Assembly (NCBI GenBank): GCA_900320485.1
Contig: ONSO01000008.1
Span: 1 to 44,687, forward strand
Direction: 5' to 3'
DNA length: 44,687 nt
Origin: an uncultured Lachnospiraceae bacterium
Lineage (GTDB): Bacteria; Bacillota; Clostridia; Lachnospirales; Lachnospiraceae
In this document: piece after piece, positions 5,564 to 14,502 of the stretch
How positions within the stretch are numbered: position 1 is the first letter of the stretch
Layout of the letters: each line of letters opens with the position of its first letter
Translations under genes and position numbers: made by a program
The notes under the pieces: model-generated
What the model was told of the DNA's origin: nothing
The model's input: only the letters and a program-made list of their open reading frames with translations
Database searches by the model: none

Positions 5564-5570
5564 CGTGTTA

Positions 5571-5715
5571 CCGGGGACGGTTCTCTTTGGCACGTTTCTG
5601 CCACCAGTGTGCCATCGGGGACGGTTCTCTCTGGCACGTTTCTGCCACCAGTGTGTCACCGGGGACGGTTCTCTCTGGCACAAGCGTGCCAACAAGAACC
5701 GTCCCCAGTGGCACA
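5571..5715. repeat. GGGGACGGTTCT palindromic repeat cluster (left of SGNH gene)
   Basis: Three copies of CGGGGACGGTTCTCT start at 5572, 5616 and 5660, an exact 44-bp period. The third copy pairs with an inverted copy, AGAACCGTCCCC at 5695-5706. This gives a large hairpin (5661-5706) with an inner TGGCAC/GTGCCA stem. Flanking motifs TGCCACCAGTGTG recur between units. The form resembles REP-like elements mobilised by REP-associated tyrosine transposases, but no transposase gene is in the window. The same repeat in opposite orientation lies beyond the next gene (6732-6832). Confidence 0.85.
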
Positions 5716-6731: not shown

Positions 6732-6832
6732 GGCTGGTGGCACAAATGTGCCAGAGAGAACCGTCCCCGGTGGCACAAACGTGCCAGAGAGAACCGTCCC
6801 CGGTGGCAGAGAGAACCGTCCCCGGTGGCACA
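6732..6832. repeat. GGGGACGGTTCT repeat cluster, inverted orientation (right of SGNH gene)
   Basis: Three copies of AGAGAGAACCGTCCCCGG start at 6753, 6786 and 6808 (spacings 33 and 22 bp). They are separated by GTGGCACAAACGTGCC-type inverted pieces. These are reverse complements of the units at 5571-5715, so the SGNH gene is bracketed by inverted clusters. The right cluster ends about 20 bp before the start of the first ABC exporter gene. Confidence 0.85.
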
Positions 6833-9212: not shown

Positions 9213-9295
9213 ACTAAGGAAAGACTGTGGTCCCTCTGGTGTGTTCATTGCGAATGCCTGGAAGTGAGAAAAGAGAAAGACAAGAGGTAAGATTG

Positions 9296-9871
9296 ATGAG
9301 TGAAGATATGGATTTGTTGGATTTGAATTTAAATGATGAATTTGATGAAGAGGCGTTGAAAAAGGAATCAGAAGAGCTTCTGGAGATGAGGTTCCTGACA
9401 AAGGAGAACGCTGTCTTTTCAAGAACGGAGGGAGGCTTTGTTGCCCTGAAGTTTGGAGATAAGGAGTATAAGAGGGTTGGCGTGTATCTGACCTTTCCGT
9501 TGACGAACCCGGAAGAATTTATCTCCATCCGTGAAGCAGACGAAAAGGCTAAGGAAATCGGGATGGTGGAGAAGCTAAAGGATCTCCCCAAGGATCAGCA
9601 GGAAATGATTCGGGAGCAGATCAGACTTCGTTATTTCATGCCTGTGATCAAAAAGATCATGGAGATCAAGGAAGAATACGGTTATGCTTACTGGCACGTG
9701 GAGACAAGCTTTGGCGTATGCCGCTTTACAACCCACGTGAGCGGTGACGTTGTGGTATCTTTGAGTGATTCCAGACTTCTTGTGAAGGATATCGATGGAA
9801 ATCGCTATGAAATCCCTGACTTTTATGCCCTTGGCATTCAGGAAAAGAAGAAGCTGGATTTGTTTATCTAG
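9296..9871 (+). CDS. DUF1854 family protein
   Basis: A 191-residue soluble acidic protein. The C-terminal part has W-H-V-E-T-S-F-G-V-C-R-F, S-D-S-R-L-L-V-K-D-I-D-G-N-R-Y and I-P-D-F-Y-A-L. This is the pattern I recognise from DUF1854 proteins, which are typically encoded beside ABC exporters like those here. The ATG at 9296 has AGAGGTAAG seven bases upstream; a longer frame from 9227 has no ribosome binding site. Lying between two exporters of the same architecture, it is probably an accessory or regulatory subunit. That role is inferred from position; no biochemical function is known to me. A 63-bp repeat array begins 15 bp after its stop codon. Confidence 0.8.
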   Translation: MSEDMDLLDLNLNDEFDEEALKKESEELLEMRFLTKENAVFSRTEGGFVALKFGDKEYKRVGVYLTFPLTNPEEFISIREADEKAKEIGMVEKLKDLPKDQQEMIREQIRLRYFMPVIKKIMEIKEEYGYAYWHVETSFGVCRFTTHVSGDVVVSLSDSRLLVKDIDGNRYEIPDFYALGIQEKKKLDLFI

Positions 9872-9885
9872 TCAAGCCGGGATTT

Positions 9886-10490
9886 TACCGTTGATTTCGA
9901 TTGCCCATGGGGAATGAGTAATAAGCCATGAGGGTGAAACGGAAGAATTACCGCCTAAGGCGATGGTGACGGGAAGTGTGCGGTAGACTGCAAAAGCAGA
10001 AAAAGAAGAATTACCGCCTAAGGCGATGGTGATGGGAAACGTGCGGTAGACTACAAAAGCAGAAAAAGAAGAATTACCGCCTAAGGCGCTTGGGAGGGGA
10101 AGCGTGCGGTAGACCGCAAAAGCAGAAAAAGAAGAATTACCGCTTAAGGCGCTTGGGACGGGAAGCGTGCGGTAGACCGCAAAAGCAGAAAAAGAAGAAT
10201 TACCGTCTAAGGCGCTTTGGAGGGGAAGTGTGCGGTAGACTGCAAAAGCAGAAAAAGAAGAATTACCGTCTAAGGCGCTTGGGAGGGGAAGTGTGCGGTA
10301 GACAGGAAGGTTTGCAATTGAAACTTCTACCGCATAAAATGCGTAGACTGTGCAGATGACGGTAAACTGCCGAATAAGGAAAATCTTTCCTACCGTACAA
10401 AAGCGGAATGTTAAGAAATATGCGGTAAATCTTGAAATGAAAAGAAAAAGGCTTACCGTCACTTTGCTACTTAACAGAAAAACAACGGTA
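9886..10490. repeat. 63-bp-period array of paired TACCG/CGGTA half-sites
   Basis: TACCG occurs at 9949, 10012, 10075, 10138, 10201, 10264, 10328, 10391 and 10454, spaced 63 bp (64 once). Each is followed exactly 32 bp later by CGGTA (9981 to 10486). An extra TACCG at 9886 keeps the phase but lacks a clear partner. The first five units are alike over all 63 bp and the sixth over its first ~44 bp. Each full unit also carries CTGC-AAAA-GCAG. The last three units have diverged and keep little beyond the paired motifs and their spacing. Half-sites alternate every 31-32 bp. No T-run follows the hairpins, so these are not terminators. Confidence 0.85.
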
Positions 10491-10798: not shown

Positions 10799-13456
10799 AT
10801 GAAATTGTTATTTACTTTGACGGGAAGTCAGTTGGAGGCGCTGGCGCTTTCGATTGGCGAGAAATTGATATATTGCGTTCCGGCAGATCTGGCCTACGAA
10901 ATGCAGGGGAGCGTCAGCCGAGCGTCAGGAAGTGTAAACAAGACGGAAGGCAGCCAAGCGGCAGGAAGCGCAACCGGTGCGGGCTCGGTGCTTGTGAGTA
11001 AAGCAGCGGGGCTTGCAGTGGAGCGCTATGAGACGGACGTGTTCCTCGCGGTGACAAATCAGAGATTTCTGGTGCTTGCGGGAAGCAAGGTGACTTACCA
11101 GGTGGCACTGAAGGATTGTGAGAAGATCCGCTGTGAACACCAAGTAGGCTGCGGCATAATCACGGTTTCGATTCCTGCGGGATACAACCATGGAGCCGAC
11201 GCGCAAGGAAAAGCAGAGGCAGCGAGCGAGGCCGGCGAGCAAGGAAAAGCAGAGGCAGCGAGCGAGGCCTGCGAGCAAGGAAAAGCAGGGGCAGCGAGCG
11301 AGACAGGCGAGCAAGGAAAAGCAGAGGCAGCGAGCGAGGCCGGCGCGCAAGGAAAAGCAGAGGCAGCGAGCAAGGCCGGTGAGCAAGGAAAAGCAGAGGC
11401 AGCGAGCGGAGCCGGCGAGCAAGAGAAAGTAGCGGCAGAAAGTGGGAACGGAAGTCAGAAAATGGCTATGGTGGATACCTGTGTTGCCAGGGTGTCCATG
11501 CGGCAGATCGTCCGGGCGTCCTATGCGGTTCGCGGCGCGCAGGCCATTGTGAGGTCCATAAAGGAAAATGGAGATGCGGATCGGGCGGAAAAAATCACAA
11601 GCTCAGAATACGAGACCTATTGCGAAAAGTGCGGCCGTGCTTTGCCGGGTACCAGTACCTGCCCATATTGCGAGGGCAAGATGGACGTGGCAAAGAAGTT
11701 TATGAGCCTGTGCGGGGGATTTGGCGGGAAGCTTTTACTGATCAGCTTATCCATGCTGGTGATCTCTGCCATGAACATGGCGAGTCCCATGGTACAGCGC
11801 TGGTTCATTGATGATGCTCTGTCCACGGGAAAAGGTACCTGGGCGGATCTGGGGCTGTTTATCGGTATTTCATTTGCTTTTTTGATCGGTGCCATTTTGT
11901 TGGAGGTATGGAAGAACCTGGCTTGCATTAAGCTGGGGTCGGAGCTTTCCATGTCCCTGAGGGAGAAGCTTTACGTAAAGATTCAGGTATTGTCGCTTTC
12001 GTTTATCAACAAGAGAAAGCCGGGCGAGCTGATGAACAGGGTTTCAAGGGATACGGGGCGCATCCGGGAATTCTTTGAGGAAGTGTTTGGATACATGTTT
12101 TCCACGCTTCTTACCATGATCGTGTCGCTGGTGGTAATGCTGACCATCAGCCCCGTCATGACCGGGCTTTCCCTGATGTTTGTCATTGTGGTTTTTGTAC
12201 TGATGAAGATCTTTTGGCATCACATCCACATGATCTTTCATCGCCAGTGGATCAAGTCCGACGAGCTTTCCAACAGCATTCAGGACATTATCTCCGGCAT
12301 GAGGATTGTGAAAACCTTTGGAACGGAAGAGAGGGAGGCAGAACGCTTTTCCCAAAAAGCGAGGGAGTATGCGCAAACGCAGTCCAAAAATGAGACCTTC
12401 TGGGCCATTTTCTTTCCGATTTTGACGTTTCTGTTGGGATGTGGAACCTATGTTGCCGTGTTGATCGGCGGGCAGAACGTGCTGGCAGGGAAAATGACCA
12501 TGGGCCAGCTGGTGCAGTTTATGACCTATAGCGGGTATCTGTTTGGACCTTTGGGATGGATGACCCATCTTCCAAGAATGGTCATGCAGATGATGACCAG
12601 CTTAAACCGTATCTACGACGTATTGGACGAGGAGCCCAAGATCAAGGATCATGACGGTAGCAGGGAAATTGCCGTGAATGGGCATTTTCAGTTTGAAAAG
12701 GTATCCTTTGGGTACAACACCTACGAACCCGTGCTGGAAGACGTCAGTTTTGAAGTGAAGCCCGGAGAGATGATCGGTCTGGTAGGGGCATCCGGCACAG
12801 GAAAGTCTACCATGATCAACCTGATCATGAGGTTGTATGATCCGGATCAGGGGCGTATCCTGTTGGACGGCGTGGATCTCAGGGACGTAAAGGTGGAAAG
12901 TCTCCACTCCCAGATCGGCGTGGTATTGCAGGAAACCTTCCTGTTCTCAGGCACGATCTTAGACAACATTCGTTTCGCAAAGCCTGCGGCAACGCTGGCG
13001 GAGGTGATCCGGGCGGCCAAGGCTGCCAATGCGCATGACTTTATCTGTAAGACGCCGGACGGTTATAATACTTACGTTGGCGAGCATGGCTATAACTTGT
13101 CCGGCGGTGAGCGTCAGAGAGTTGCCATTGCCAGGGCCATTCTGAATAACCCTAAGCTCTTGATCCTGGATGAGGCGACCTCAGCGCTGGATACGGAGAG
13201 CGAATTCCTGATCCAACAGGCACTGAACCGTTTGATTCAGGGAAGAACCACCTTTGCCATTGCCCACAGACTGTCGACGCTGCGTGAGGCAGACCGGCTG
13301 ATCGTCATTGACAAGCATTCCATCGCGGAGATGGGTAGCCACAATGAACTTCTGGAGAAGAAGGGAATTTATTACGGACTGGTGACGGCGCAGCTTCGCA
13401 TGGCGGAAGGACGGCCTGAGGCAGGCACAACTGCGCTGGAAAGACTGGGCGCGTAG
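10799..13456 (+). CDS. ABC exporter with N-terminal PH-like domain and zinc ribbon (second copy)
   Basis: An 885-residue exporter with the same order as the gene at 6855. It has an N-terminal PH-like domain, a zinc ribbon (Cys275, 278, 288, 291), six membrane helices and an ABC domain with G-A-S-G-T-G-K-S, L-S-G-G-E-R-Q-R, L-D-E-A-T-S and I-A-H-R-L-S. The N-terminal domain is longer than in the first exporter because of two low-complexity insertions: a Ser/Gly/Ala stretch near residues 38-70 and a Glu/Ala/Gly/Lys/Gln repeat at about 135-212. AAGAGGAAT precedes the ATG. Both exporters keep catalytic Glu and His, so they could form homodimers or a heterodimer. Substrate unknown; linkage to DUF1854 is the best clue. 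Confidence 0.85.
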   Translation: MKLLFTLTGSQLEALALSIGEKLIYCVPADLAYEMQGSVSRASGSVNKTEGSQAAGSATGAGSVLVSKAAGLAVERYETDVFLAVTNQRFLVLAGSKVTYQVALKDCEKIRCEHQVGCGIITVSIPAGYNHGADAQGKAEAASEAGEQGKAEAASEACEQGKAGAASETGEQGKAEAASEAGAQGKAEAASKAGEQGKAEAASGAGEQEKVAAESGNGSQKMAMVDTCVARVSMRQIVRASYAVRGAQAIVRSIKENGDADRAEKITSSEYETYCEKCGRALPGTSTCPYCEGKMDVAKKFMSLCGGFGGKLLLISLSMLVISAMNMASPMVQRWFIDDALSTGKGTWADLGLFIGISFAFLIGAILLEVWKNLACIKLGSELSMSLREKLYVKIQVLSLSFINKRKPGELMNRVSRDTGRIREFFEEVFGYMFSTLLTMIVSLVVMLTISPVMTGLSLMFVIVVFVLMKIFWHHIHMIFHRQWIKSDELSNSIQDIISGMRIVKTFGTEEREAERFSQKAREYAQTQSKNETFWAIFFPILTFLLGCGTYVAVLIGGQNVLAGKMTMGQLVQFMTYSGYLFGPLGWMTHLPRMVMQMMTSLNRIYDVLDEEPKIKDHDGSREIAVNGHFQFEKVSFGYNTYEPVLEDVSFEVKPGEMIGLVGASGTGKSTMINLIMRLYDPDQGRILLDGVDLRDVKVESLHSQIGVVLQETFLFSGTILDNIRFAKPAATLAEVIRAAKAANAHDFICKTPDGYNTYVGEHGYNLSGGERQRVAIARAILNNPKLLILDEATSALDTESEFLIQQALNRLIQGRTTFAIAHRLSTLREADRLIVIDKHSIAEMGSHNELLEKKGIYYGLVTAQLRMAEGRPEAGTTALERLGA
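11201..11434 (+). repeat. In-frame 36-bp tandem repeat inside the second exporter
   Basis: One 33-bp unit, five 36-bp units and a partial unit encode the repeating 12-mer G-E-Q-G-K-A-E-A-A-S-E-A with small changes. The period is a multiple of three and the exporter frame stays open. The insertion sits in the loop between two strands of the PH-like domain, ahead of the zinc ribbon. The first exporter has nothing at this place. Such arrays usually vary in copy number between strains. Confidence 0.9.
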
Positions 13457-14402: not shown

Positions 14403-14412
14403 ACCGCACGGC

Positions 14413-14502
14413 GCAGGCAGCAGTTTTGTCACGGTGCAGGAAGAGTTCACGGTGCAGGCAGCAGTTTTGTCACGGCGCAGGAAGAGTTCACGGTGCAGGC
14501 AG
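14413..14502. repeat. 41-bp tandem repeat between convergent genes
   Basis: Units beginning GCAGGCAG start at 14413, 14454 and 14495, an exact 41-bp period with one base difference between the two full copies. Within each unit CACGGTGCAGG is itself repeated. The array fills the space between the mecA-like gene and the end of the convergent pseudouridine synthase gene. There is no T-run, so it is not an evident terminator. Confidence 0.8.

Follow-up and report, generated by a model that had tools for sequence, protein, structure and literature searches.

What keeps a series of short inverted motifs at fixed distances in an intergenic gap, when much of the sequence between the motifs has changed? 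The question is raised by a window of 44,687 nucleotides (the whole stretch of DNA analysed here) from an uncultured Lachnospiraceae bacterium, in which the half-sites TACCG and CGGTA alternate in the array set out in Table 1. TACCG starts at positions 9886, 9949, 10012, 10075, 10138, 10201, 10264, 10328, 10391 and 10454, and CGGTA at 9981, 10044, 10107, 10170, 10233, 10296, 10360, 10423 and 10486. The distance from TACCG to CGGTA is 32 bp in all nine pairs, and that from CGGTA to the next TACCG is 31 bp, once 32 bp, which gives a single unit of 64 bp. The initial annotation, which had described nine pairs at 32 bp in units of 63 or 64 bp with a tenth TACCG kept in phase, is exact to the base. 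It had also described the first six units as alike and the last three as changed beyond motif and spacing; TRF agrees, reporting a 63-bp array of 5.7 copies with 93% matches at 9942-10303, so that the last three units are indeed diverged almost throughout, save for their half-sites. No other 5-mer in the window forms an alternating chain as long as this one of 18 sites, and in each of 20 shuffled windows (shuffled in triplet blocks, which is not strictly dinucleotide-preserving) the longest such chain had 4.

Table 1. Features of the array in the window and of its neighbours
Feature	Coordinates	Strand	Basis
TACCG-type half-site array: 10 TACCG and 9 CGGTA, alternating, 32/31 bp apart	9886..10490		motif positions
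Recent amplification: 5.7 near-identical 63-bp units	9942..10303		TRF
Diverged part: three units, little kept beyond half-sites and spacing	10328..10490		motif positions
Orphan TACCG half-site, in phase (63 bp), no CGGTA partner	9886..9890	+	motif positions
Left neighbour: DUF1854 protein (PF08909), outside the system	9227..9871	+	Pfam
Right neighbour: ABC exporter (PF00664, PF00005), outside the system	10799..13456	+	Pfam

The window holds other repeats as well. A different family, of type CCGGGGACGGTTCTCTCTGGCAC, occupies 5565-5681 and 6736-6830 in opposite orientations flanking a GDSL-lipase gene and looks REP-like; a 36-bp repeat (6.8 copies, 11195-11438) lies in the reading frame of the ABC exporter and corresponds to a repetitive protein stretch, and a 41-bp repeat (2.3 copies, 14407-14502) is found just downstream of a MecA-like gene.

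The array has many counterparts in its own genome (G000), where a pattern of three half-sites gave 79 matches (39 forward, 40 reverse, on 15 contigs; control 0). Counted as arrays there are 16 on these 15 contigs, that of the window being on C131 and two being on C148; the half-site and the spacing are the same in these dispersed arrays and the spacers are unrelated. Exact four-site patterns identify TACCG arrays in 5 of the 138 genomes of the genus (G000, G076, G089, G011 and G129). Long genes with a Pfam match contain none of the 16 arrays of G000; several arrays overlap antisense frames or open frames lacking such a match, as a 63-bp period favours open frames, and in G076 a 723-aa open frame encloses one short array (L151). 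The genes adjoining the arrays of G000 are diverse (YitT, PadR, GDSL, GH5, cyclophilin, ABC, thymidylate synthase, RsmE, TrkA and others), and a special link to the DUF1854 and exporter cluster is not supported, since the other arrays adjoin many kinds of gene. The initial annotation had named, as observations that would count against it, arrays that lose the 63/32-bp spacing or copies scattered without regard to these genes: the copies are indeed scattered, with no link to DUF1854 or exporter genes, but the spacing is kept in them. Beside the array in both G000 (C121) and G011 (C20) starts a GH5 cellulase gene, other glycosyl hydrolases flank arrays of G000 at C173 (GH39/GH43) and C255 (GH94), and two arrays of G076 lie near gaps that hold an array in G000, though not in the same gaps; these recurrences count against a clean absence of any link between arrays and neighbours.

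In eight of the 16 arrays of G000 (C92, C137, C148a, C173, C176, C181, C250 and C255) the first TACCG is preceded, at a distance of exactly 28 bp, by a box like GAAAAnCYGTCTTT. A second box, AAAATGAGGGAAAA, immediately precedes a later TACCG and is present in 9 of the 16. Boxes at set places suggest an oriented element rather than a bare array.

Selection on motif and distance, which had been proposed from the window alone, is supported by a locus that two species have kept. The arrays of G000 C200, of G129 C8 and one of G076 sit between the same two genes (the G076 array is split over the ends of contigs C9 and C14 and was joined by inference), and no such array is present at the near-homologous locus in six other genomes (G011, G071, G018, G089, G138 and G078). 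Fourteen half-site positions are found at this locus in each of G000 and G129; 11 are identical, and the other three depart by one base in one or both genomes. Compared in register, the 13 spacers agree at 48.1% of their bases, against 47.1% (sd 8.0) when the register is shifted, and thus retain no residual similarity. Inheritance with selection on the half-sites would be the simplest reading of these sequences, and repeated insertion of an array at the same place in G000 and G129 a less simple one.

A gene flanking the C200-type locus encodes a PD-(D/E)XK-like product without Pfam or NCBIfam match. Members of this family adjoin an array in G000, G129 and G076 (one locus), and in G011 a member adjoins a TACCGCC array; none is encoded within the window. 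The family is multicopy, protein searches finding it in 48 of the 138 genomes of the genus with up to nine matches each. For 64 unique members, drawn from 70 loci (a subset of all protein-search matches), the upstream sequence was long enough for the 700 bp before the gene to be scored for chains of at least 6 alternating sites: such an array is present in 32 of the 64, as against 3 of 66 downstream of family genes, 0 of 64 in shuffled upstream sequence, 5 of 229 in control windows that included array loci and 0 of 88 in a cleaner set of control windows. When the four genes that had suggested the comparison are set aside, 29 of 60 have an upstream array. By subset the counts are 3/4 for the prompting genes, 23/36 for loci chosen by hand and 6/24 for the best locus of each genome; the last, set against the cleaner control (Fisher 6e-5), indicates that the association of gene and array is real in an unchosen set, though its rate there is only a quarter. 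The end of the array lies a median of 49 bp from the predicted start codon (range 0-301, n=45). The half-site is shared by 22 of 28 protein pairs with at least 60% identity versus 54 of 962 pairs below that value, and the observed mean was reached in 0 of 5000 permutations; the half-site is thus alike in close homologues and changes from lineage to lineage. The best half-site word beside 45 family genes takes 35 different values, several of which are shifted readings of one site. On these counts the pairing of gene and array is well supported.

Some loci of the family deserve separate mention. A sister half-site, TACCGCC, with a 53-bp period (31 + 22), is found upstream of related nuclease genes at L235 (G011 C8), L265 (G129 C29) and L237 (G089 C11), and further copies of this type occur away from a checked gene, e.g. 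at G129 C5:76010. Upstream of the distant family members at L364, L366, L374 and L375, direct TTTGTCGG repeats about 10 bp apart replace the inverted half-sites, as judged by eye. A ComEC-type metallo-beta-lactamase gene stands beside array and nuclease gene in 14 of 100 loci, some of which overlap (L325, L314, L330, L313, L248, L249, L251, L253, L254, L256, L258, L259, L278 and L288), across the genus and in G162, G164, G166 and G167; this is perhaps the ancestral place, with a possible link to DNA uptake.

The family protein (~266 aa) comprises an N-terminal helix-sheet-helix region and a C-terminal nuclease fold; the AlphaFold2 model (mean pLDDT 93) predicts two long helices around a three-stranded sheet, followed by the nuclease-type fold. 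Residues invariant in 61 aligned members include S160, K161, E163, Y179, E180, P193, D194, F195, E209, H210 and G212. The family has a conserved motif RSKSE..PDF..EH, with EH in place of ExK, so that it is hard to say where the usual lysine would stand. Foldseek identified the Bax1 nuclease as the best match (E 6e-4, probability 1.00, TM 0.26), the single match below 0.001, followed by an R2 retrotransposon protein, Can2 and DrdV at E 0.01-0.05, all with low TM-scores. With PADLOC the C-terminal end of the candidate defence protein PDC-S68 matched the nuclease domain in all eight members scanned (E 5e-24 to 5e-28), and HEAT_CxxC_PDDEXK matched seven of the eight weakly, down to 2e-5. No match was found in Pfam above threshold or in NCBIfam for the four members scanned; PHROGs gave weak matches only, the best (E 6e-4) to a family of unknown function and others to endonucleases, and a sequence search of the PDB gave chance-level matches only (E 0.19 and 0.34). 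By its acidic motif and its predicted core fold, the family fits the PD-(D/E)XK nuclease superfamily. The nuclease domain, ~120 residues, is common to PDC-S68 (by sequence) and Bax1 (by Foldseek); unlike in these proteins, it is joined here to a short N-terminal region without a Pfam family, and an array precedes the gene.

The distances between half-sites follow rules of their own. The half-site reads TAC(C/A)G, with mostly C or T as the next base, in a non-redundant set of 63 inner units taken from G000, G011 and G129. The inner distance is 32 in G000 (53 of 57 pairs) and G164 (81 of 87), 31 in G076 (23 of 28) and G011 (6 of 8) and 33 in G168 (6 of 9); spacing is a genome-specific property, and it follows the helix. 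The 184 outer distances cluster at 22, 31-32, 41-42, 51-52, 72-74 and 83-84 (R 0.80 at both 10 and 10.5 bp), with some off the clusters, e.g. 26, 36-37, 33-34 and 66. From G164, 27 fetched loci contain 29 TACCG arrays, 16 of which have in common an eight-position architecture (0, 32, 73, 105, 156-157, 188-189, 229-230, 261-262); three of these 16 are shifted by 1-4 bp and several miss one or two exact sites. A TwoAYGGAY RNA (RF01731) at L192:814-979 adjoins one of the G164 array elements. A looser test of five sites, applied to 87 proteins (62 from the genus and 25 from other Clostridia), yielded 45 family genes with an array, and at all 45 the median array period is 51-54 (24 genes), 61-64 (14) or 73-75 (7), with none between. 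These periods correspond to five, six or seven turns of the helix, with a Rayleigh R of 0.895 at 10.5 bp, but the statistic is nearly flat from 10.25 to 11 bp and hence the exact helical repeat is not fixed by these data. Such quantisation supports the earlier suggestion that a protein may bind all sites on the same face of the DNA.

If arrays and nuclease-like genes belong together, the family should also accompany TACCG arrays outside the genus, and it is present in 6 of 7 genomes of other Clostridia that have such arrays. G168 has a TACCG array upstream of a family member, spaced 33/30 like the dispersed copy in the same genome; G167 has a partly degenerate one upstream of a member; and the dispersed TACCGACTAAA elements of G162 are matched there by a CCGACT array, which has five units at 74 bp. 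No TACCG array was found at the family genes of G163 (0 of 5 matches) or G164 (0 of 3, despite the 29 arrays in the fetched loci of that genome); G165 contains TACCG pairs (25, control 6) and gave no family match. The TACCGTCCCAAA class has no partner gene among all 13 family matches in G162 and 7 in G166, an additional 10 loci from the two genomes included. Likewise, of the members fetched from G011 and G089 (4 of 5 and 6 of 7, respectively) none matches the 62-63 bp TACCG arrays of these genomes, the TACCG member being of the 53-bp type. These are draft genomes, in which many contigs end inside arrays, but the absences still count as failures of the prediction. Other candidate relatives were set aside by eye: 21-bp tandem repeats in Bacteroidetes and Oscillospiraceae and several single matches in other phyla appear unrelated or due to chance. 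The CGGTA/TACCG repeats of 21 bp, or two helical turns, at L092, L093, L099, L103 (Bacteroidetes MAG) and L094 were judged unrelated.

A second half-site, GCAAC, is dispersed as well. Its arrays gave forward and reverse matches of 23 + 23 in G071, 24 + 21 in G089, 45 + 49 in G129, 19 + 22 in G138, 17 + 22 in G018, 12 + 12 in G076, 4 + 3 in G000 and 2 + 4 in G011 (controls 0-2 per strand), and among the matches listed they lie on several contigs in G071, G076, G018 and G089. Five array stretches of G071 have 159-384 bp in common (89-98% identity), beyond which the similarity breaks off abruptly. All four stretches that include the left end agree on it, and so do all four that include the right end; two of the five are contig ends and possibly halves of one array. 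By their sequences these stretches look like cassettes without the nuclease gene. For both half-site families, TACCG and GCAAC, arrays are dispersed away from the gene.

The array of the window may accordingly be viewed in several ways, two of which treat it as something other than a set of protein-binding sites. That the units are relics of an old tandem duplication which survived by chance would agree with the six window units being recent tandem copies, but arrays with unrelated spacers have the same half-site and spacing and the two species discussed above keep 14 positions with randomised spacers, which leaves this explanation with hardly any credibility. The initial annotation had also considered a transcript of tandem hairpins, and the inverted half-sites could certainly pair; the RNAalifold energy is far below that of column shuffles (z -12.7 and -15.8), as any conserved palindrome would give. 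However, the base just inside the half-site is alike between the arms in 34 of the 63 inner units, with 31.0 expected (p 0.24), so that the arms do not covary; TACAG/CTGTA variants face unchanged partner sites; and 19 copies of a related element, with 27 consensus pairs, have a covariation term of 0.07 and two-sided change in only 2 of the 27. Neither over the window array nor over the elements in the 20 loci scanned is there an Rfam match, and the spacing is quantised to turns of the DNA helix. An RNA element is very improbable on this evidence.

Other readings involve the protein. An anti-phage or selfish role, in which the array would hold the nuclease in an inactive filament or mark self DNA until invading DNA frees the nuclease, is suggested by the PADLOC matches to PDC-S68 in 8 of 8 members and by the multicopy nature of the family. 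The overlap with PDC-S68 is nevertheless limited to the nuclease domain, as is the best segment in the 7 loci of viral contigs that match the family, and we consider such a role improbable. A phage origin was rejected, the TACCG arrays in two viral contigs looking like chance motif-rich stretches. More deserving of attention, though still doubtful, is the reading that the nuclease fold has been domesticated and that the protein binds DNA in an autoregulatory or architectural role, the dispersed arrays being regulon or nucleoid sites that it does not move. The arrays do lie on the promoter side of the family genes at a short median distance from the predicted start codon, the phasing of the sites and the conservation of half-sites at the DUF4003 locus suggest that the arrays have a function in place, and the GH5 genes beside arrays in G000 (C121) and G011 (C20), together with GH39/GH43 at C173 and GH94 at C255, would suit a regulon. 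Against it, the neighbours of dispersed arrays taken together are of many kinds, the copies of G071 and of G164 share long sequence like mobile cassettes, those of G071 also having abrupt ends, and the nuclease motif residues E163, P193, D194, F195, E209 and H210 are invariant in 61 aligned rows.

We think it probable that the array of the window is instead a gene-less dispersed copy, lying in an intergenic gap, of a cassette whose master copies stand directly upstream of PD-(D/E)XK-like genes. According to this nuclease-cassette model the protein, probably via its N-terminal region, would bind double-stranded DNA at the half-sites, cooperatively and on a single face of the helix, and would control its own gene through the upstream array. 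By nicking or cutting, it could cause cassettes and tandem units to be copied to new intergenic places in trans, as RAYT does for REP elements.

Several known systems invite comparison. Plasmid centromere and iteron arrays present regular short sites to a DNA-binding protein on one helical face; here, unlike there, many copies occur per genome, the half-sites alternate and the cognate gene is nuclease-like. CRISPR arrays likewise combine a short constant motif with variable sequence between, but they consist of direct repeats of at least 20 nt with spacers of constant length, whereas the constant part here is 5-7 bp and alternating, with no long direct repeat; no Cas family is present among the flanking proteins scanned.

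The closest known system in logic is REP/RAYT (PMC3733652, PMC8266576, PMC8049555), which may work alike. REP or BIME elements with their RAYT (TnpA-REP, of the IS200/IS605 HUH family) resemble the present system as dispersed extragenic palindromes found as arrays and singletons, with a nuclease-type cognate gene beside a copy and lineage-specific repeat types. The arrays described here are likewise dispersed, many-copy palindromes and extragenic, with the one exception of L151 in an open frame of G076. The differences are as follows. RAYT is an HUH tyrosine (Y1) transposase and the enzyme here is PD-(D/E)XK-like. A GTAG tetranucleotide at the foot of the palindrome defines REP (PMC3733652, PMC8266576), and such a foot is not conserved here, the base after CGGTA being A in 13, G in 7 and T in 4, i.e. 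GTAG in 7 of 24. By the enzyme and by the GTAG foot the arrays therefore do not belong to REP/RAYT. Where REP has a single-strand hairpin of 20-40 nt, the present arrays have half-sites with 5-7 conserved bp, set whole turns of the double helix apart; this whole-turn rule argues against a single-strand hairpin substrate of the RAYT kind, and the missing covariation of the arms argues against recognition of a single-stranded hairpin. Finally, RAYT genes are flanked by repeats, and here the array is mostly on one side (upstream 32/64, downstream 3/66).

The family of nuclease-like genes appears to be undescribed: no description of the nuclease-array pair was found in the open-access literature searched. 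Whether the system forms a class of repeat systems separate from REP/RAYT, with lineage-specific half-sites of 5-7 bp, one-face assembly at whole turns, self-regulation, copying of cassettes and a new half-site code for each nuclease lineage, we regard as evenly balanced. The variety of half-sites across one protein family offers natural material for studying how proteins recognise short sites, and the strict whole-turn spacing makes cooperative same-face assembly directly and cheaply testable. If the model is true, a nuclease-like protein with a dispersed population of DNA sites would represent a second, independent solution to the problem solved by REP and RAYT.
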